Assembly (NCBI GenBank): GCA_018716015.1
Contig: DVKM01000075.1
Coordinates: 1-47,751 of the forward strand
DNA: 47,751 bases
Source: Candidatus Enterenecus stercoripullorum
GTDB lineage: Bacteria; Bacillota; Clostridia; Oscillospirales; Oscillospiraceae
Direction of reading: 5' to 3'
The translations under genes and the position numbers were made by a program. The notes below the pieces were generated by a model. It saw nothing but the letters and a program-made list of their open reading frames with translations. It made no database searches and had not been told where the DNA came from. Positions 2,528 to 25,658 of this stretch are shown here, one piece after another. How positions within the stretch are numbered: position 1 is the stretch's first letter; the number at the start of each line of letters is the position of its first letter.

Positions 2528-3664
2528 ATGGACAATCAGTATCCTTTCAGCATATCAGAGGAGGAGCGGGCCCGGCGGCGGGCCCAGCGGATCGCCGCCC
2601 GGCGGCAGCGCCAGCGGGAGCGGCGGCGGCGTTTGCTGCTGCGGGCGGTTCCCGCGGCGGCGCTGCTGTGCGTGGCGGTGGGGCTGCTGGCCTTCAGCAC
2701 CGGGGGCCATGCGGAGGACGCCGGCAGCGGGAAGGCGATCCGACCCGTCCAGGTCCGCCACGAGACGGGGAACACGGCCCAGGCGGCGGCTGTGTCTCTT
2801 ATGACAAAGGCGGCGCCTGCGATCTCCTATGCCGCCGTGGCAACGGAGGACACCGCCCAGGTGGGGGAGGAGCTGGCCAGCCAGTACGCCGTGGTGGTGG
2901 ACCTGGGGGAGGGGACCATCCTGGCCCAGAAAAACGCCGACGCGGTCATCAGCCCCGCCTCCATGACCAAGATCCTCACCGTCCTGGTGGCGGCGGAGGA
3001 GGTGGCGAACCACGGCAGCCTGGACGACACGGTGGTCATCGACTTTGATATCACCAACTACTGCTACCTCAACGAATGCTCCGTGGCGGGCTTTCTCAAG
3101 GACGAGGCGGTGACGGTCCGGGACCTGTTCTACGGGGCCATCCTGCCCTCCGGGGCCGACGCCTGCCTGGGGCTGGCCAAGTACGTGGCCGGGTCCCAGG
3201 AGGACTTTGTGGTCTTGATGAATGAGAAGGTGGAGGAGCTGGGGCTCAGCGACACGGCCCACTTCGCCAACTGCATCGGCCTGTATGACGACGCCAACAC
3301 CTGCACCGTCTACGACATGGCCATGATCCTGAAGGCGGCCCTGGACAACGAGCTGTGCCGCCAGGTCCTGACCACCAAGGTCTATGAGATCCCCGCCAGC
3401 GAGGCCCACCCGGAGGGGATGGTCCTGTCCAACTGGTTTTTGCGGAAGATCGAGGACCACGTGCCGGAGGGGCTGGAGGTCCTGGGGGCCAAGACCGGCT
3501 TTGTGGACGAGTCCGGCAGCTGCGCCGCCAGCTACGCCCAGCTCAGCGGCGGCGGCGAATATATCTGTGTCACCGGCAACGCCTTCAGCTCCTGGCGGTG
3601 CATCAAGGACCATGTCCAGCTTTACACCACCTATCTCCCCGGCCTGGAGCCTGTGCTGGAGTGA
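2528..3664 (+). CDS. D-alanyl-D-alanine carboxypeptidase, DacF/PBP5-like serine enzyme
   Basis: 378 residues. An Arg-rich cytoplasmic tail (1-36) precedes a membrane segment (about 37-56); the rest is extracytoplasmic. The penicillin-binding motifs are visible: Ser145-x-x-Lys148 (SMTK), a second-motif position reading SGA (208-210) in place of canonical SGN, and Lys322-Thr-Gly. Peptidase S11 enzymes remove the terminal D-alanine of muropeptides. The start at 2528 has AGGAG upstream, whereas an ATG at 2501 has no ribosome site. A perfect bidirectional terminator follows. Many PBP5-like proteins have a C-terminal amphipathic anchor; this one is held by its N-terminus instead. Confidence 0.88.
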   Translation: MDNQYPFSISEEERARRRAQRIAARRQRQRERRRRLLLRAVPAAALLCVAVGLLAFSTGGHAEDAGSGKAIRPVQVRHETGNTAQAAAVSLMTKAAPAISYAAVATEDTAQVGEELASQYAVVVDLGEGTILAQKNADAVISPASMTKILTVLVAAEEVANHGSLDDTVVIDFDITNYCYLNECSVAGFLKDEAVTVRDLFYGAILPSGADACLGLAKYVAGSQEDFVVLMNEKVEELGLSDTAHFANCIGLYDDANTCTVYDMAMILKAALDNELCRQVLTTKVYEIPASEAHPEGMVLSNWFLRKIEDHVPEGLEVLGAKTGFVDESGSCAASYAQLSGGGEYICVTGNAFSSWRCIKDHVQLYTTYLPGLEPVLE

Positions 3665-5450: not shown

Positions 5451-6434
5451 TCAGATCTCGGGCTGGACGGCGATGGCCTCGGCCATGATGGCGTTGAACT
5501 GCTCCTCGTTCAGCTCGCTGATGACGGTATTCAGGGCGTCCAGCAGCTGGGTGTTGCCCTTAACTACGGACATACCGATGTTTACGTTCTCAGCCCGCTC
5601 CTCTTCGCTGGCGAACTGGAAATCCCCGTCGGTGCCGGAGAAGTTCAGAATGACCAGATTGCCGTTCTTGGACATGGCGGCGGTGGCGGTGGGCATATCG
5701 GTGCAGATGAAATCCACGGTGCCGCTCTCCAGGGCCATGATCATGGCCGGGGCGGTGTCCGCGGGGGCTTGGACCTGGGCGTCGGGGATCTGGGGCAGGC
5801 AGGAGGTGTACCAGATGGTGCCGGACTGAGCGGTGCACAGGCCGCCGGACAGGTCGTCAATGGAGGTGGCGGAGGCGTACTGGCTGTCCTTGGTGGTGAC
5901 GCACACGATGGTGGCGTAGTAGTAGGGACCGGCCATGTCCACCTCTTCCAGGCGGTCAGCGGTCATGGACTGGCCGGCGATGGCCACGTCGATGACGCCG
6001 CTCTGCAGCCCGGCGGTAAGACCGCCCCACTCCAGGGCCATGACCTCCAGCTCCCAGCCATAGGCGTCACAGATGCGCTGGGCCATCATCACGTCATAGC
6101 CGTTGGCGTAGGAGCCGGGGTTGTTGACGATGGGCACCGCGCCGTTGGAGTCGTCGGTCTGGGTCCAGTTATAGGGGGCGTAGGCGCACTCCATGCCCAC
6201 GGTGAGCACCCCGTCCTCCACGCCGGGGATAGAGCTGGTGTCCACACCAGTGAGGTCCGCCACCGGGGGGATTTTCACGGCGGGGGCCTCAGACTCCACA
6301 GGTGCCTCGGAGCCGGAGGCGGGGGGTTCAGAGCTGTTGGCGGGGGGCTGGGAGGTACCGGCGTCGCCGCCGCAGGCGGCCAGGGAGAGCGCCAGGGCGG
6401 CGCTGAGCAGCAGGGCAATGGTTCTTCTCTTCAT
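5451..6434 (-). CDS. Polar amino acid (lysine) ABC importer, substrate-binding lipoprotein
   Basis: 327 residues. A signal peptide with Lys/Arg start and lipobox LAAC puts the lipidated cysteine at residue 21. A Ser/Pro/Ala/Glu-rich linker follows (about 22-60), then an SBP_bac_3 (periplasmic-binding-protein type II) domain that captures the amino acid outside the cell. It is the first gene behind the lysine riboswitch leader, so lysine (or a related basic amino acid) is the likely ligand. Ribosome site GAAAGAGGAAA precedes the ATG at 6434. The family also binds cystine, glutamine and others, and the protein alone does not decide. Confidence 0.9.
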   Translation of the reverse strand: MKRRTIALLLSAALALSLAACGGDAGTSQPPANSSEPPASGSEAPVESEAPAVKIPPVADLTGVDTSSIPGVEDGVLTVGMECAYAPYNWTQTDDSNGAVPIVNNPGSYANGYDVMMAQRICDAYGWELEVMALEWGGLTAGLQSGVIDVAIAGQSMTADRLEEVDMAGPYYYATIVCVTTKDSQYASATSIDDLSGGLCTAQSGTIWYTSCLPQIPDAQVQAPADTAPAMIMALESGTVDFICTDMPTATAAMSKNGNLVILNFSGTDGDFQFASEEERAENVNIGMSVVKGNTQLLDALNTVISELNEEQFNAIMAEAIAVQPEI

Positions 6435-6500
6435 GTTCGTTTCCTCTTTCCTTTTCAGTGTGGTCCGCCCCGGCTGGGGCGGCGGCCATGGACCGCAAAT

Positions 6501-6536: not shown

Positions 6537-6596
6537 CGTGAACCGCAGATGCGATCATGGTCAACCAATATCCTCCGGGAAAGAGGCCTATTTCCA

Positions 6597-6762
6597 CCAT
6601 GATAGCGCTTCACACGATGGTGTGACAGTCCGCCGGGTATTCCCCTGCGGCCCAGGCAGCGGGAAACCGGACCAGTTTCCCGTCCTTCGGCGGCGACGCC
6701 TTTCGCCGGAGGCAGTCGTCCATGCCCTCCGGGTACTCATCGGTACCGCGCCTCTATCATCG
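6597..6762 (-). promoter_or_regulatory. Lysine riboswitch (L-box aptamer)
   Basis: On the minus strand the conserved L-box landmarks appear in order: GATAGAGGCGCG at the 5' side, GAGTA, GCGAAAGG, GTCGCCGCCGAAGG, GCTGCCTGGGCCG, GGACTGTCAC and GAAGCGCTATCAT at the 3' side. The outer helix P1 pairs ATGATAG (6754-6760) with CTATCAT (6599-6605). The order and spacing match lysC-type L-boxes. Lysine binding is expected to switch off the downstream ABC importer operon (6434 to 3745). The leader starts at the consensus promoter at 6778-6806. Confidence 0.93.
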
Positions 6763-6777
6763 GTTCAATTTGTGGGT

Positions 6778-7957: not shown

Positions 7958-7990
7958 GCGGGGGGCCGGAGCTTTCTCCGGCCCCCCCGC
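7958..7990 (+). terminator. Terminator after the YitT-family gene
   Basis: A long GC stem (GCGGGGGGGCCGGAG with its complement) closes a short TTT loop 23 bases past the stop. The T-tract is weak (CTTCAT). Confidence 0.65.
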
Positions 7991-8083
7991 TTCATCCCGC
8001 GGCCAGGCAGGGGAACGGGAGACGGGGATATTGCAGCCCTCCTGTTTATTCACAATTTCCTCTTTTTTCTCCTGCGGCAATGT

Positions 8084-8091
8084 GGTATACT
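8084..8091 (+). promoter_or_regulatory. Extended -10 promoter upstream of secA
   Basis: TGG-TATACT (-10 box 8086-8091) has the extended TGn element. No convincing -35 box lies 17 bases upstream, only a T-rich tract at 8061-8069. The surrounding ATGTGGTATACTA is the same as at 18206-18217, upstream of the metallophosphoesterase gene. Confidence 0.5.
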
Positions 8092-8200
8092 ACGAGATAA
8101 TTGGGTCAATGTACCTACTGCCCGCCCCGGCGCCTTTGGGCGGGGCCGGAACTCGGCCCAGGGCAGGCAAAAGGACACAGGAAGAAAGGACACAGAGGTT

Positions 8201-10990
8201 ATGGGTCTGTTTTCAAAAGTATTCGGCTCCCGCTCCCAGCGGGAGGTCAAGGCGCTCACGCCCTTGGTGGACAAGATCGAGGCGCTGGGCGAGGAGATGA
8301 AGGGGCTCAGCGACCATGAGCTGCGGGCCAAAACCGACCAGTTCAGGGACCGGCTGGCCAAGGGGGAGACGCTGGACGACATCCTCCCCGAGGCCTTCGC
8401 CGTCTGCCGGGAGGCGGACGAGCGGGTGCTGGGTATGCGCCCCTACCGGGTGCAGCTCATCGGCGGCATCATCCTTCACCAGGGGCGCATCGCCGAGATG
8501 AAGACCGGCGAGGGCAAAACCCTGGTGGCCACCCTGCCGGCCTACCTGAACGCCCTGGCGGGCAGGGGCGTTCACATCGTCACCACCAACGACTACCTGG
8601 CCAAGCGGGACTCGGAGTGGATGGGCAAGGTGTACCGCTTTTTGGGCCTCACCGTGGGCCTGGCTATCCACGGGGTGGACAAGGCGGGCAAGAAGGCGGC
8701 CTATGCCGCCGACATCACCTACGGTACCAACAACGAGTTCGGCTTTGACTACCTGCGGGACAACATGGCCATCTACGCCAGCGAGCTGGTGCAGCGGGGC
8801 CACGCCTTCGCCATTGTGGACGAGGTGGACTCCATCCTTATTGACGAGGCCCGCACCCCTCTGATCATCTCCGGTCAGGGGGAGCAGTCCACCCAGCTCT
8901 ATCAGCTGGTGGACAATTTCGTGGCCCGGCTCAAGTGCCTGAAGGTGGCCTCGGTGGACGCCAAGCAGGAGGAATCCGGCGACATCGACGTGGACTACAT
9001 CGTGGATGAGAAGGCCCGCACCGCCACCCTTACTGCCCGGGGCGTGGCCAAGGCGGAGCAGCAGTTCAACATTGAAAACCTCTCCGACCCGGAAAACTCC
9101 ACCCTGTCCCACCACATCAACCAGGCCATCAAGGCCCATGGGGTGATGAAGCGGGACATTGACTACGTGGTGAAGGACGGCGAGGTCATCATCGTGGACG
9201 AGTTCACCGGCCGGCTGATGTACGGCCGGCGGTACAACGAGGGCCTGCACCAGGCCATCGAGGCCAAGGAGCACGTCACCGTGGCCCGGGAGTCTAAGAC
9301 CCTGGCCACCATCACCTTCCAGAACTACTTCCGCCTGTACGACAAGCTCTCCGGTATGACGGGTACCGCCATGACCGAGGAGGAGGAGTTCGGGCAGATC
9401 TACAACCTGGATATTGTGGAAATTCCCACCAACAAGCCCCTGCGGCGCAAGGACCAGCCCGACTATGTGTTCAAGACCAAGGCGGGCAAATACCGGGCCA
9501 TCGTCAAGCAGATTCAGGCCTGCCATGAGAAGGGCCAGCCGGTGCTGGTGGGCACGGTGTCCATCGAGGTGTCCGAGCTGGTCAGCGGGATGCTTTCCAA
9601 GGCGGGCATCAAGCATAATGTCCTGAACGCCAAGCACCATGAAAAGGAAGCGGAGATCGTGGCCCAGGCGGGCAAGCTGGGGGCGGTCACCGTGGCCACC
9701 AACATGGCCGGCCGCGGCACTGACATCATGCTAGGGGGCAACGCGGAGTTCCTGGCCAAGGCCCAGCTGCGCAAGGCGGGTATGAGCGACGAGCTCATCG
9801 CCGAGTGCGACGGCCACGCCGAGACGGACAACCCGGAGATTCTGGAGGCCCGCCGGGCTTTTGCCGAGGCCGAGGGCAGGTTCAAGGAGGAGATCCGGGC
9901 GGAGGCGGAGCAGGTCCGGGCCGCCGGGGGACTATATATCCTGGGCACCGAGCGCCATGAGTCCCGGCGCATCGACAACCAGCTGCGGGGCCGCGCCGGA
10001 CGTCAGGGCGACCCTGGGGAGAGCCGGTTCTTTCTGTCTCTGGAGGACGACATCCTGCGCCTGTTCGGTTCTGAGCGCATTCAGAATATGATGGAGACCC
10101 TGGGGGTGGACGAGGATACCCCCCTGGATCAGAAAATGCTGTCCAACGCCATTGAGTCTGCCCAGAAGCGGGTGGAGTCCCGGAACTTCCAGACCCGGAA
10201 GACGGTGCTGGAGTACGACGATGTGATGAACACCCAGCGGGAAGTCATCTACAAGCAGCGCCGCCAGGTGCTGGACGGGGAGGACGTCCACGGGGCCATT
10301 GAGAACATGCTGGACACCATCATCACCAGCACTATCTCCGGCCACGCTGGAGAGCAGGGCTGTCTGGACGAGGCGTCCTTCCAGGCGGCCACCGCCCACC
10401 TGTCCGGCAGCGTGTTTACCCCGGACCAGCTGTTGGACTTCCGGAAGAAGGCGCCCGGCCTGAGCGCCGACGAACTGAGCCGGGAGATGCTGGAGACCGC
10501 CAAGGAGAACTACGCCAGACGGGAAGAGGAGATCAACACCCAGATGGCGCCCCTCATGGGCAGCTCCGGAAAGGTGCCCATGCGGGAGCTGGAGCGGGTG
10601 ATCCTGCTGCGGGTGGTGGACGAATACTGGATGGACCAGATCGACGCTATGCAGGAGCTGCGCCAGGGCATCGGCCTGCGGGCTTATGGTCAGTCCGACC
10701 CGGTGGTGGAGTACAAGCGGGAAGGCTACGACATGTTCGAGCAGATGATCGCCGCCATCCAGGAGGAGACCATCCGCCGGTTGTTCACCGTCCGGCTGAA
10801 GACCAACGAGGAGATTAAGCGGGAGCGGGTGGCCAAGATCACCGGCGAGTCGGGGGCCTCCGACGGCACCGTCAAGAAGCAGCCGGTGAAAAAGACCGTT
10901 AAGATCGGCCGCAACGACCCCTGTCCCTGTGGCAGCGGGCTGAAATGGAAGAAGTGCACCTGCAAGGAATATCACCCTGACCTGGGCTGA
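8201..10990 (+). CDS. secA: Preprotein translocase ATPase SecA
   Basis: 929 residues, near the typical full length. It is the motor that drives unfolded preproteins through SecYEG. Walker A GEGKT is at 103-107; Walker B with [20 protein letters not shown] follows near residues 205-225; the preprotein cross-linking, helicase-like second nucleotide domain ([26 protein letters not shown]) and helical scaffold follow in order. The C-terminus carries the zinc/SecB-type tail CPCGSG...KKCTC (Cys908, Cys910, Cys919, Cys921). The ATG at 8201 has AAAGGACACAGAGG upstream. A hairpin-prone GC-rich leader precedes it; no secA regulator such as secM was seen. Confidence 0.97.
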
Positions 10991-23097: not shown

Positions 23098-23330
23098 TGT
23101 CTTGCCTCCAAAAATCAGAATGATGGGCACAGTCTCATCGCCCGTAATCATAGCACAGTGGAAGGAATTGTACAAGACCCAGAAACCCGGGGACACGGGG
23201 CGGCAATAAGATGCTGTTGCCAAATTGTCACCCTTTTGTTGTTGTCTTTTGCTCTTGCCTGTGATACCCTGGAAAAAATTCCTGGTGGGCGCAAGCCCGG
23301 CCGGAACGGAAAACCCGAGGAGGTGTCACG

Positions 23331-23780
23331 ATGAAATTAGCCGAAGCATTGCAGGAGCGCTCGGACCTCAACCGCCAGATTGAGCAGTTGAAGTTCCGCT
23401 TGGTCAACAATGCTGTGGTCCAGGAGGGGGAGGCCCCCGCCGAGGACCCGGTTCAGCTGCTGGAGCAGATAAACCACAGCATAGCCCGGCTGGAGGAGCT
23501 GATGGCCGCCATCAACCTGGCCAACTGCCGCACGGTGGTGGATGGCATGACCTTGACCCAGCTCATTGCCCGAAAGGACTGCCTGCGCCTGAAGGTGGAG
23601 GCCTACCGGGATTTGGCGGAGGCGGCCAGCCAGACCGCCCACCGGGCCACCCGCTCGGAGATCCGCATCCTCAGTGCCGTGGACGTCAAGGCTGTCCAGG
23701 GGGAGGCGGATTCCATGGCCAAGGAGCTGCGTTTGCTGGACAATCAGCTCCAGCAGACCAACTGGATGACAGAACTGTAA
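23331..23780 (+). CDS. DIP1984 family (septicolysin-annotated) protein
   Basis: 149 residues, predicted to be mainly coiled helices: MKLAEALQERSDLNRQIEQL at the start, a central VDGMTLTQLIARKDCLRLKVEAY stretch and a Gln-rich LLDNQLQQTNWMTEL end. This matches my recollection of the DIP1984 family, often labelled septicolysin without functional evidence. No signal peptide or membrane segment is present, so a secreted toxin role is unlikely. The ribosome site GAGGAGGTG is strong. A structured tRNA-like RNA begins about 25 bases after its stop, and the first good plus-strand terminator is at 24000-24036, so gene and RNA appear to share a transcript. Confidence 0.8.
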   Translation: MKLAEALQERSDLNRQIEQLKFRLVNNAVVQEGEAPAEDPVQLLEQINHSIARLEELMAAINLANCRTVVDGMTLTQLIARKDCLRLKVEAYRDLAEAASQTAHRATRSEIRILSAVDVKAVQGEADSMAKELRLLDNQLQQTNWMTEL

Positions 23781-23801
23781 CCGGCGGCGGCTGGTAGCCG
23801 G

Positions 23802-23900
23802 CGGTGCGAATGTGATCTCAGCGGCTGAGAATGAGTCCGCAGGTGGCATGCGTCCAAGGGCAGGCGCCGGGTTCGAATCCCGATGGAATCGTAATGCCCC
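23802..23900 (+). ncRNA. tRNA-like structured RNA downstream of the DIP1984 gene (possible Y RNA-like)
   Basis: Three arms in tRNA order can be drawn. A D-like arm TCTC-AGCGGCT-GAGA (23816-23830) has the GG of a D-loop. A middle arm CGCA-GGTGGCA-TGCG (23838-23852) has a seven-base loop but G instead of U at the position before the anticodon. A T-like arm CGGG-TTCGAAT-CCCG (23868-23882) is a near-perfect T-loop. There is no clean seven-pair acceptor stem and no CCA end; a weak closing helix (23805-23809 with 23889-23893) is possible. It is therefore not a decoding tRNA. Bacterial Y RNAs (Yrl) are known tRNA mimics with such arms, which is the best match I can offer; no Ro60 gene is in the window. 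Exact ends are unknown. Confidence 0.6.
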
Positions 23901-23999
23901 GACCGCGCACGACCGTATTGTGACCGTTACATTGTATCACCCAGCATTGGCCGCCGGCGAGGGCGGGCACGGGGGCCCGCCGCCCGGAAAAGGCAGCGA

Positions 24000-24036
24000 C
24001 AGAGCGTCTGGTTTCTACACCAGACGCTCTGTTTTG
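24000..24036 (+). terminator. Terminator of the DIP1984/tRNA-like RNA transcript
   Basis: A perfect 13-bp stem (24000-24012 with 24019-24031) with a six-base loop is followed by TTTTG on the plus strand. It also lies just past the convergent ABC permease stop at 24042 and may serve both. A GC stem (23962-23968 with 23975-23981) precedes it. Confidence 0.8.
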
Positions 24037-24041
24037 TCTAG

Positions 24042-25658
24042 CTATTTCACCCGGAAGGTTCGGGGGGCCCGGAGGTAGACCAGGGCGAGGATGACGGCGG
24101 AGTACACCACCGTCACCGCCAGCACCAGCAGGGTGAACCAGGAAGGGGTGCTGCGGATCTGGATGCAGGCGTAGCACACCGCATACACCGAGAAGTTGAT
24201 GGCGGAGAAAAAGGGATTTTTCACCTGCAGGTCCGAGGTGTAGGGCTGGAACAGGTAGTACATGCCCAGGCAGTGGACGGAGAAAAACACCCCCAGGCAC
24301 AAAATGGCGGCCAGGAAGATCAGGTACTCATCCAGGGGCGGGCGCCCTCCGGCACATAGGGTGAGCACCGTGAACATGACGCACACCGCCCCGGACACCG
24401 CCAGATTGACCCCGCACAGCCGCTGGAACCGGAGCAGGAAGTTCTTCAATATCACATCCCCCTGGCGGTACCAGGGGTACTTCAGCATGGCCAGGTCGCA
24501 GTTGTAGAACATGGCCTTACAGATGCGGGTGCCCACGGTGTTGTCCATGAAGTACAGGAAGAACACGCAGTAGGGCAGGGACAGGGGGACCAGGTCGAAC
24601 ATCTCCGCCGTCTCCCTGCCCCGGAATAGGAGCAAGGCCACGGCCCCCACCACTGTCACCCCGGCGAGAATGGCCAGCACGATTTTCACCGGCTTGTAGA
24701 GCATCCGGCGGTGGCGGCGGAAGAACAGGGCCTGGAGATAGGGCCAGCCGGTGAGCCGGGATTCCCCCTCCGCCGTCAGGTCGCTATCCTTGAGCTGCAC
24801 ATCACTGAATTGGGAGCCGGAGGCCTTTTTCTTGGCCAGCTCAGGAGAGACAGACTCCGCCTTGCAGGTGTCCAGCACCAGGCGGTAGTAGCTGGGGAAG
24901 CGGACCATGTAGACCGCCCCCAGTGCACCCAGCACAGCCAGCACGGCCACAACCGCCGGGTGGAGCAGCGCGTCCTGGGGGCGGGCCTGGGGCCAAACCA
25001 GCAGACAGACGGAGGCTCCCACTATGCCCAACACTACCAGCAGAATGATGTACCACACCTTGCTGCCGATGCTCACCCCGGTGCGGCTGTAGAGGGCCAG
25101 GTGGATGGCCTCGGCGGCCAGGCGGACAAAGGCCAGCTCCAGGCCGATGACCAGCCCTGCCCAGGCCCCCGCTCCCAGCAGGGTAGTGACGATCATGAGC
25201 AGGGGGGTGAAGCCGGCCAGCTCAGCCAGATGGTGGCCCAGGCCGGTGATCATCTGATAGCGCTTGGCGCTCATGCCCATCATGCGCACGCAGACATATT
25301 TTAGCTGGGAGGGGGCCACCGCGTGGGGCTGGAGCATGGTGCCGATCAGAAAGCTGAACCATAGGAAAATCCAGCAGAAGGGGCCAAGGTTGGCCGGGGC
25401 CAGAGCATCCTGGGGGCCGTCCAGAGCCAGGGAGGCGGAGAAGAGCAGCAGCGCCGCCAGATACAGCACCTTGCCCACCACGGCCTTTAAGGCCCACCAC
25501 AGGCTCTGAAAGACGAACAGGGCGAACTTGCCCTCTTCGGCGGAGTAGAGATGGTCGGTGAGCAGCCGGCGGATCAGGGGCAGGCGGCCGATCCAGTAGA
25601 TGAGCTTGTTGCCCCGGATGGCCCCATTGATGCGAAAGATGGTCCAGGCGTTACCCAT
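24042..25658 (-). CDS. ABC exporter membrane subunit (large permease)
   Basis: 538 residues with roughly ten to twelve hydrophobic segments spread over the full length, in two halves separated by a soluble stretch (about 280-325) holding SPELAKKKASGSQFSDVQLKDSD. It resembles the putative ABC exporter permeases of Firmicutes rather than importers. The ATG at 25658 overlaps the upstream ATPase stop by eight bases, with GGGGAGGAAC as ribosome site, so the pair is translationally coupled. Substrate unknown; no binding protein is present, which fits export. Confidence 0.75.
   Translation of the reverse strand: MGNAWTIFRINGAIRGNKLIYWIGRLPLIRRLLTDHLYSAEEGKFALFVFQSLWWALKAVVGKVLYLAALLLFSASLALDGPQDALAPANLGPFCWIFLWFSFLIGTMLQPHAVAPSQLKYVCVRMMGMSAKRYQMITGLGHHLAELAGFTPLLMIVTTLLGAGAWAGLVIGLELAFVRLAAEAIHLALYSRTGVSIGSKVWYIILLVVLGIVGASVCLLVWPQARPQDALLHPAVVAVLAVLGALGAVYMVRFPSYYRLVLDTCKAESVSPELAKKKASGSQFSDVQLKDSDLTAEGESRLTGWPYLQALFFRRHRRMLYKPVKIVLAILAGVTVVGAVALLLFRGRETAEMFDLVPLSLPYCVFFLYFMDNTVGTRICKAMFYNCDLAMLKYPWYRQGDVILKNFLLRFQRLCGVNLAVSGAVCVMFTVLTLCAGGRPPLDEYLIFLAAILCLGVFFSVHCLGMYYLFQPYTSDLQVKNPFFSAINFSVYAVCYACIQIRSTPSWFTLLVLAVTVVYSAVILALVYLRAPRTFRVK

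Follow-up and report, generated by a model that had tools for sequence, protein, structure and literature searches.

The question raised by this locus is what kind of element lies directly behind the DIP1984-family (DUF6847) gene of Candidatus Enterenecus stercoripullorum and whether it belongs with that gene. In the present study, the window is the whole stretch of 47,751 nucleotides of contig DVKM01000075.1 (assembly GCA_018716015.1), which comes from a draft genome of 1.83 Mb in 114 contigs that is 87% complete. The original prediction, made from the sequence letters, placed a tRNA-like or Y RNA-like RNA downstream of the gene and suggested that the DIP1984 protein may bind or act on it. 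Sequence comparisons indicate that the RNA behind DIP1984 is a real, conserved, covarying structure, and its predicted link to DIP1984 was borne out by conservation and covariation behind homologues of the gene. We consider it probable that the gene and the RNA of approximately 185 nt form the two halves of one ribonucleoprotein cassette with DIP1984 as the dedicated partner, in analogy with Ro60 and Y RNA.

Thirty-two RNAs located downstream of DIP1984 genes were aligned using MAFFT without reference to structure (alignment A2), and the alignment was scored against a structure drawn from the RNA of locus L012 and by eye. A covariance model, R1, was built on A2 and used with a cut-off of E≤1e-3. 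The window RNA is a row of this training alignment; therefore, the R1 match listed for it is by construction. The gene and the parts of the RNA are as follows.

23331–23780, plus strand: DIP1984-family (DUF6847) gene, 149 amino acids, the presumed protein partner (Pfam PF20935, NCBIfam NF038048).
23793–23975, plus strand: structured RNA core of approximately 185 nt, the whole covariance-model match (R1, 153.5 bits, E 2e-51).
23781–23790, plus strand: 5' strand of the outer helix P1, lineage-specific, pairing with 23977–23987 (sequence CCGGCGGCGG / CCGCCGCCCGG).
23977–23987, plus strand: 3' strand of P1, pairing with 23781–23790.
23793–23796, plus strand: conserved GGUA (GGTA in 30/32 aligned RNAs).
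23797–23804, plus strand: 5' strand of the closing helix P2, pairing with 23951–23958 (halves with 95.3% and 89.1% of cells paired; 8/8 pairs double-changed).
23951–23958, plus strand: 3' strand of P2 (MAFFT covariation).
23805–23808, plus strand: 5' side of the P2–P3 internal loop, UGCG in the window and most commonly GGCG (column counts).
23949–23950, plus strand: 3' side of the same loop, GG in the window (GA 20, GG 5, AA 4, AG 2, and TA 1 among 32 rows).
23809–23813, plus strand: 5' strand of helix P3, pairing with 23944–23948 (99.4% of cells paired; 5/5 pairs double-changed).
23944–23948, plus strand: 3' strand of P3 (MAFFT covariation).
23816–23830, plus strand: stem S1 of an H-type pseudoknot, UCUCA 23816–23820 / UGAGA 23826–23830 (position-constrained pseudoknot test).
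23821–23840, plus strand: stem S2 of the H-type pseudoknot, GCGG 23821–23824 / CCGC 23837–23840 (pseudoknot test; 61.5% of cells, 3/6 pairs double-changed).
23850–23867, plus strand: hairpin P5, GCGUC 23850–23854 / GGCGC 23863–23867, with GGGC in its loop (66.8% of cells; 6/6 pairs double-changed).
23858–23861, plus strand: 5' strand, GGGC, of the loop pseudoknot PK2, pairing with 23896–23899 (82.8% of cells; 2/4 pairs double-changed).
23896–23899, plus strand: 3' strand of PK2, GCCC (MAFFT covariation).
23868–23882, plus strand: T-arm, CGGG-UUCGAAU-CCCG (93.0% of cells paired; 3/5 pairs double-changed).
23939–23941, plus strand: near-invariant ACC 5' of the P3 3' strand (A in 31/32 and the next C in 32/32 rows; the full ACC was read from the alignment).
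23959–23974, plus strand: conserved 3' motif GAGGGYGGGNNNGGGG (alignment A2).

The structure is supported by A2 as a whole. The covariation score was 0.462 against 0.219 in shuffles, none of the 500 shuffles being as high, and control structures slid along the alignment reached 0.128 at most. Paired cells amounted to 82.6% (68.5% in shuffles) and 27/34 pairs were double-changed (21.9 in shuffles), while the number of double-change cells was 180 against 69.1 (sd 6.6), again unequaled in 500 shuffles. Further pair types were less striking (66 against 61.4, with 29/500 shuffles as high), and S2 and P5 were the weakest helices. Alignment of the 3' regions of DIP1984 genes, proposed with the original prediction as a check, thus revealed both conservation and covariation. 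When the 61 distinct R1 matches were aligned to the model, pairing amounted to 90.1% of cells, in an alignment that is structure-fitted and, therefore, biased towards structure. The region 23781–24036 folded with z = -3.3, to which a strong hairpin at 23998 contributes a part. G-U cells exceeded A-C cells in P2, P3, and the T-arm (34, or 19+6+9, against 9, or 7+1+1); therefore, the folded strand is probably the DIP1984-sense strand. This ratio was reversed in PK2 (5 against 9), where some rows are off by one base.

The H-type pseudoknot, with at least eight pairs directly after P3, was found in 36/50 RNAs, whereas shuffles gave a mean of 7.4 and a maximum of 13 in this position-constrained, pooled test. 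Fourteen of the 50 rows fell below eight pairs, several by a misplaced anchor (e.g., L042, L045, L046, L049, L051, L056, and L057). In an earlier test that left position free, the signal was weak, with 16/59 loci reaching p≤0.05 individually. These results changed the reading of the arms that had been drawn in tRNA order. The helix TCTCA/TGAGA at 23816–23830, taken for a D-like arm, exists, but it is S1 of the pseudoknot and not a D-arm. The proposed middle arm CGCA/TGCG at 23838–23852 was not retained: its motif pattern occurs in 2/32 aligned RNAs, and the conserved hairpin there is P5. The T-arm with the loop TTCGAAT is present and its stem covaries, but 25/60 loci lack it. The absence of an acceptor stem was correctly noted as regards tRNA; however, a different closing helix, composed of P2 and P3, had been missed.

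In its full form, the conserved stretch of approximately 185 nt reads GGUAGY...GAGGGYGGGNNNGGGG in the DNA downstream of DIP1984 at the loci read. PK2 occurs as GGGC/GCCC, GAGC/GCTC, and GGAC/GTCC across homologues. The loop of the T-arm is conserved and its stems vary; by the criterion used, the arm is present in 35/60 downstream regions, which are partly non-distinct and among which L067 falls short by one pair. P1 is absent by eye from some distant members, and GGUA and the 3' motif are jointly missing by eye in L058, L062, and L069. An inspection by eye and a pairwise column scan revealed nothing clear for pairing between GGUA and ACC or for extra helices 3' of GCCC.

How closely does this RNA follow the gene? 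R1 matched behind 57/62 DIP1984 loci in four phyla, and two of the misses (L026 and L029) are at contig ends. Outside the training alignment, 25/30 loci matched behind the gene at E≤1e-3, some of these 30 being near copies of training rows or of one another (e.g., L008 and L021, L036 and L035, and L063 and L061). Among 60 relatives, the RNA was present in 18/18 genomes with DIP1984 over the cut-off, and the other 42 gave two R1 hits: a remnant in G033 and a 71-nt hit in G026 (E 6e-4), which we take for chance. Among 398 genomes of the phylum, 22/23 with DIP1984 over the cut-off carried the RNA at E≤1e-3, and the 23rd (G203) matched in the locus-level search. The window genome is included in both sets, and the large searches use stricter filters. 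Five phylum genomes beyond these 23 had RNA hits. One was G278, in which the hit lies beside the truncated DIP1984 gene of L053, and the four without DIP1984 were G310 (a 3' half) and G279, G317, and G404 (30–91 nt, E 6e-5 to 4e-4). The near relative G033 retains the 3' end of the RNA (L088, minus strand, 1501–1573) between flanks that share 93.7% and 93.8% identity with L014, relative to which it is short of a 632-bp segment carrying the gene and the 5' portion of the RNA. We read this as a joint loss of the two.

The pair was found in Bacillota (named records), in Actinomycetota (Streptantibioticus, Streptomyces, and Mycolicibacterium), in Pseudomonadota (Paracoccus, Psychrobacter, and Acinetobacter), and in Cyanobacteriota (Picosynechococcus). 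A protein search detected DIP1984 in 369 plasmid records, 340 of which were from Acinetobacter, and the RNA was inspected in eight plasmid records (L058–L061 and L066–L069). Three scans of viral contigs did not reveal a DIP1984 relative, and E. coli genomes did not contain a DNA match to the Acinetobacter gene and RNA. As sampled, the RNA is closely linked to one protein family and to nothing else. This close gene-RNA pairing makes a joint action of the protein and the RNA likely, as had been suggested, with binding between them being presumed.

Two loci carry additional copies. In L046 (G445), full-length RNA matches at 1980–2168 and 2947–3135 lie on either side of a gene of 208 aa that weakly resembles an AbiEi-type antitoxin, and the first RNA match alone follows DIP1984. 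In L122 (G070), neighboring DIP1984 genes lie at 5992–6450 and 7984–8442 on the minus strand, and the RNA behind the second is weak (L057, E 0.42).

A same-strand position behind the gene may also be expected of a cis-acting 3' element, the structure of which would control how the DIP1984 mRNA is stabilized, terminated, or translated and would have no role in trans. In the loci read, the RNA follows the gene on a shared strand, and no plus-strand promoter was recognized for it, as was also the case for DIP1984. However, the fold is elaborate, with two pseudoknots and long-range closure; the distance from the stop codon varies, with a hairpin inserted between in L004 and L006; and the second full-length RNA in G445 (L046, 2947–3135) lies behind a different gene. 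We regard a cis element as unlikely, although it retains some weight. The original prediction placed the first good terminator at 24000, and the following hairpin is there in the sequence and fold.

23998–24033, plus strand: 15-pair hairpin and short T run, a possible terminator shared with the convergent gene (sequence and fold; not called by the terminator scan).

No terminator in 23100–24100 passed the scan, which requires at least 5 T in 8 bases. Between the DIP1984 stop codon and the RNA, L004, L006, L007, and L018 of the same genus carry an AT-rich inverted repeat of the CTTTTTC/GAAAAAG type, which may be a small repeat element.

The T-arm raises a further possibility, namely, that an ordinary tRNA gene has decayed here or that the element acts as DNA (an integration site or replication structure) rather than as RNA. 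In line with this, tRNA-Sec gave sub-threshold matches to the RNA strand of L012 (E 0.07–0.11) and L031 (E 2.7), and orphan 3' halves occur in G087 and G310. The L012 RNA resembles class II tRNA (tRNA-Sec, RF01852) in its order of a D-like stem, a long variable-arm-like hairpin, and the T-arm; however, this match, at 19.9 bits against a gathering score of 47, is far below the threshold, an acceptor stem, anticodon arm, and CCA are lacking, and the D-like stem is within a pseudoknot. Similarly, the window T-arm resembles mascRNA-menRNA (RF01684; 17.7 bits, gathering 42.5, E 0.68), but the match rests on the T-arm and is at chance level. ARAGORN detected 0 tRNA and 0 tmRNA genes in the window and no tRNA in the scanned downstream stretches, and no tRNA or tmRNA family reached the Rfam gathering score over the window RNA, in agreement with the earlier view that it is not a normal tRNA. 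Homologues retain a different, covarying fold, which is unexpected of decay. The G-U excess in P2, P3, and the T-arm (not in PK2) favors a sense-strand RNA over a DNA element, and no integrase was recognized from the open reading frame starts of the 16 kb that surround the G087 copies, where no family search was made. Decayed tRNA and DNA elements are largely refuted by the covariation and the R1 matches behind DIP1984, and we assign them a negligible probability. The tRNA mimicry originally claimed is partial: the T-arm is real, although missing in 25/60 loci, and the supposed D-arm belongs to a pseudoknot.

The integration-site idea was prompted by the orphan halves and the second copy in G445. 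The orphan halves are L117 (G087), which shares the strand of the full copy and lies approximately 13.3 kb away from it, and L112 (G310), among mobile-element-like genes.

The window protein is a clear member of the DIP1984/DUF6847 family, as the original prediction stated for the gene at 23331–23780. It scored 164.9 bits against PF20935 (curated cut-off 27, E 1.4e-48) and 177.3 bits against NF038048 (curated cut-off 70, E 2e-52), and its closest named relatives are from Oscillospiraceae metagenome-assembled genomes, one of which is Candidatus Pelethomonas. The family libraries consulted do not state a function for DIP1984/DUF6847. An AlphaFold2 model of the protein is mostly helical (mean pLDDT 86.1), and in a fold search of the PDB, chains of 3kdq, the homologue from C. 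diphtheriae with unknown function, were the only matches at E≤0.001. A SerRS-like tRNA-binding coiled coil, an idea taken from the sub-threshold tRNA-Sec match, was rejected: 3kdq stood alone at E≤0.001, and no synthetase was present among the best 50 of 591 matches. Ten residues are invariant in 25 DIP1984 proteins: Q31, G33, L43, I61, N65, E110, R134, Q141, N144, and W145. In the searched literature, the family, including 3kdq, was not linked to an RNA, whereas in the present study an RNA adjoins the gene. A family with a crystal structure and an unknown function thereby gains a close RNA partner, which makes its function testable.

How might the two halves work together? We infer that the RNA is transcribed and bound by the DIP1984 protein, and we propose the following steps in the same conditional sense. 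The long closing helix, with P2 and P3 on either side of the conserved internal loop, bears a compact domain that contains two pseudoknots and, across many lineages, a T-arm as well. The protein probably grips the loop of this helix together with its flanking motifs, GGUA and GAGGGYGGG. If Ro60 and Y RNA are taken as the model, the RNA may scaffold the protein or gate its access to other RNAs. The T-arm may attract enzymes that read T-arms (e.g., TruB or TrmA) or an exonuclease. With the protein on the closing stem, the pseudoknotted domain would be left to meet client RNAs or enzymes. A role in RNA quality control or repair is hinted at by the position of the pair between rtcB-like and rtcA genes on one Acinetobacter contig. 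In its wider form, the proposal describes a previously undescribed class of bacterial ribonucleoprotein, a Ro60-free analogue of the Ro-Y particle in at least four phyla and on plasmids, with damaged or structured RNAs being handled jointly by a small helical protein and an RNA that has two pseudoknots and often a T-arm; we consider the chances of this wider form to be even.

The gene order that suggests a repair role is on contig CAKLQH020000004.1 (L062, 708–4265), where an rtcB-like gene, an unknown 166-aa gene, DIP1984, the RNA, and rtcA follow one another. In 32 context loci, the largest groups of genes other than DIP1984 covered three loci, all of the genus of the window, and the remainder were pairs; the span was approximately 6 kb per side for 18 loci and shorter for the others, some being cut by contig ends. 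The L062 record is labelled Acinetobacter phage; it is a 232-kb contig that also carries a pepD-type gene and looks like a mislabelled bacterial chromosome. Dependence of the pair on RtcB was rejected on the distribution of RtcB, which was detected in 16/40 DIP1984 genomes and not in the window genome.

A cassette with a role of this type also has to be weighed against observations that do not favor it. Because of the RtcB distribution given above, the link to repair rests on one contig. Among the best 50 of 591 fold-search matches, no RNA-binding analogue stood out, and DIP1984 proteins are approximately neutral or slightly acidic (18 K+R and 23 D+E in the window protein). L058, an A. baumannii plasmid locus, had no R1 match at E≤1e-3; a divergent form of the RNA is visible by eye in its alignment to L062 and L069. 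Two second DIP1984 copies, L056 and L057, were below the R1 cut-off (E 0.095 and 0.42, respectively). Among the weak or partial DIP1984 loci L019 and L052–L055, the RNA was found in L053 alone, where the gene is cut by the contig end. No single motif is universal: GGUA and the 3' motif are absent from Acinetobacter and Psychrobacter loci, and the T-arm is absent from 25/60. Furthermore, no sigma-70-like promoter was recognized on the plus strand in 23100–24100, neither upstream of DIP1984 nor upstream of the RNA.

The nearest known system is the bacterial Y RNA with its partner Ro60, and in principle the RNA could itself be a true member of the Y RNAs (Yrl) and bind Ro60/Rsr, in which case DIP1984 would be an accessory gene. 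In the sections of PMC8394870 consulted, YrlA is 90–150 nt and has a long 5'-3' stem and a T-arm; the stem binds Ro60 and the tRNA-like part binds PNPase. The stem and bulge of Y RNA form the Ro60 site according to portions of PMC4726728 and PMC4030889, and excerpts of PMC7790460 describe rtcBA operons that include genes for Ro60 and Y RNA. The window RNA shares with the system so described the long helix that joins its ends (P2 and P3), a domain with a T-arm, an adjoining protein gene, and, in one Acinetobacter locus, rtcB-like and rtcA neighbors. It differs in adjoining DIP1984 rather than Ro60, in its length of approximately 185 nt, in its two pseudoknots, which are not mentioned for Y RNAs in the parts of the texts compared, and in its conserved GGUA and GAGGGYGGG ends. 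As regards the D-, T-, and acceptor arms expected of the tRNA-like domain of a Y RNA, the T-arm occurs in 35/60, the 'D-arm' is a pseudoknot stem, and there is no acceptor.

In the genus of the window, the loop region is often GNCGAA / UUGACC, which presumably resembles the bacterial Y consensus. In contrast, the distribution of Ro60 does not fit a true Y RNA. A TROVE/Ro60 match was detected in 2/40 DIP1984 genomes and not in the other 38, many of which are drafts. The search for a Ro60/Rsr gene suggested by the original prediction did not yield a TROVE match in the window genome (G000, an 87% complete draft), and single-contig DIP1984 genomes without a match were G081, G107, G355, G441, and G445. 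TROVE matches, most of them partial, occurred in 9/398 phylum genomes, two of which are among the 23 with DIP1984. Since two of the 398 genomes carry both, DIP1984 and TROVE are not mutually exclusive. Within approximately 1.5 kb on each side of the nine TROVE matches, which are partial and some of which may not be true Ro60 genes, R1 gave nothing convincing (7.1 bits, E 0.043; 6.6 bits, E 0.064; and 2.4 bits, E 1.8). A scan for the Y-consensus motif gave single and unconvincing matches in 3/9 TROVE loci. No Rfam 15 family reached the gathering score over the window RNA, the presence of a bacterial Y RNA model in Rfam 15 being unchecked, and at E≤5 the lone match overlapping the RNA in 17 loci was an opposite-strand chance hit (L030, E 2.1). 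Membership in the Y RNAs was rejected on the TROVE, R1, and Rfam results, and we consider it very unlikely; the resemblance in layout, namely, the long closing stem and T-arm, stands, and the analogy is kept for the DIP1984 ribonucleoprotein that we favor.

A small gene with a pseudoknotted RNA, a patchy distribution, and a presence on plasmids may also suggest a type III-like toxin-antitoxin system with DIP1984 as the toxin and the RNA as the antitoxin, and the DIP1984 gene is named septicolysin in some Acinetobacter plasmid records. The hallmark of type III systems is that the toxin gene is preceded by an array of tandem pseudoknot repeats. In contrast, the present RNA is single and downstream of the gene in the loci read, with a second copy behind another gene in one genome, and no toxin nuclease stood out among the best 50 of 591 fold-search matches. 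Therefore, a toxin-antitoxin system appears highly improbable. The RNA partnership also argues against the reading of DIP1984 as a cytolysin that is implied by 'septicolysin' in plasmid records H47, H52, and H53.

Neither the RNA nor its pairing with DIP1984 matches a family tested, and the Ro-Y RNA particle is the nearest working analogue. The literature searched did not describe the RNA or the pairing; some key papers on RNA-repair operons and Y RNAs were outside the search, and an earlier mention there is possible. The RNA represents a large pseudoknotted class without an Rfam 15 match in at least four phyla. If it works like the Ro-Y RNA particle, the same scaffold logic would have been built around a different protein.

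In the window, the DIP1984 gene is the lone plus-strand gene between two neighbors on the minus strand, one encoding an M3 oligopeptidase and the other having no Pfam match. The sole Rfam match at gathering scores in the window was the lysine riboswitch RF00168 (96 bits) at 6595–6764 on the minus strand.

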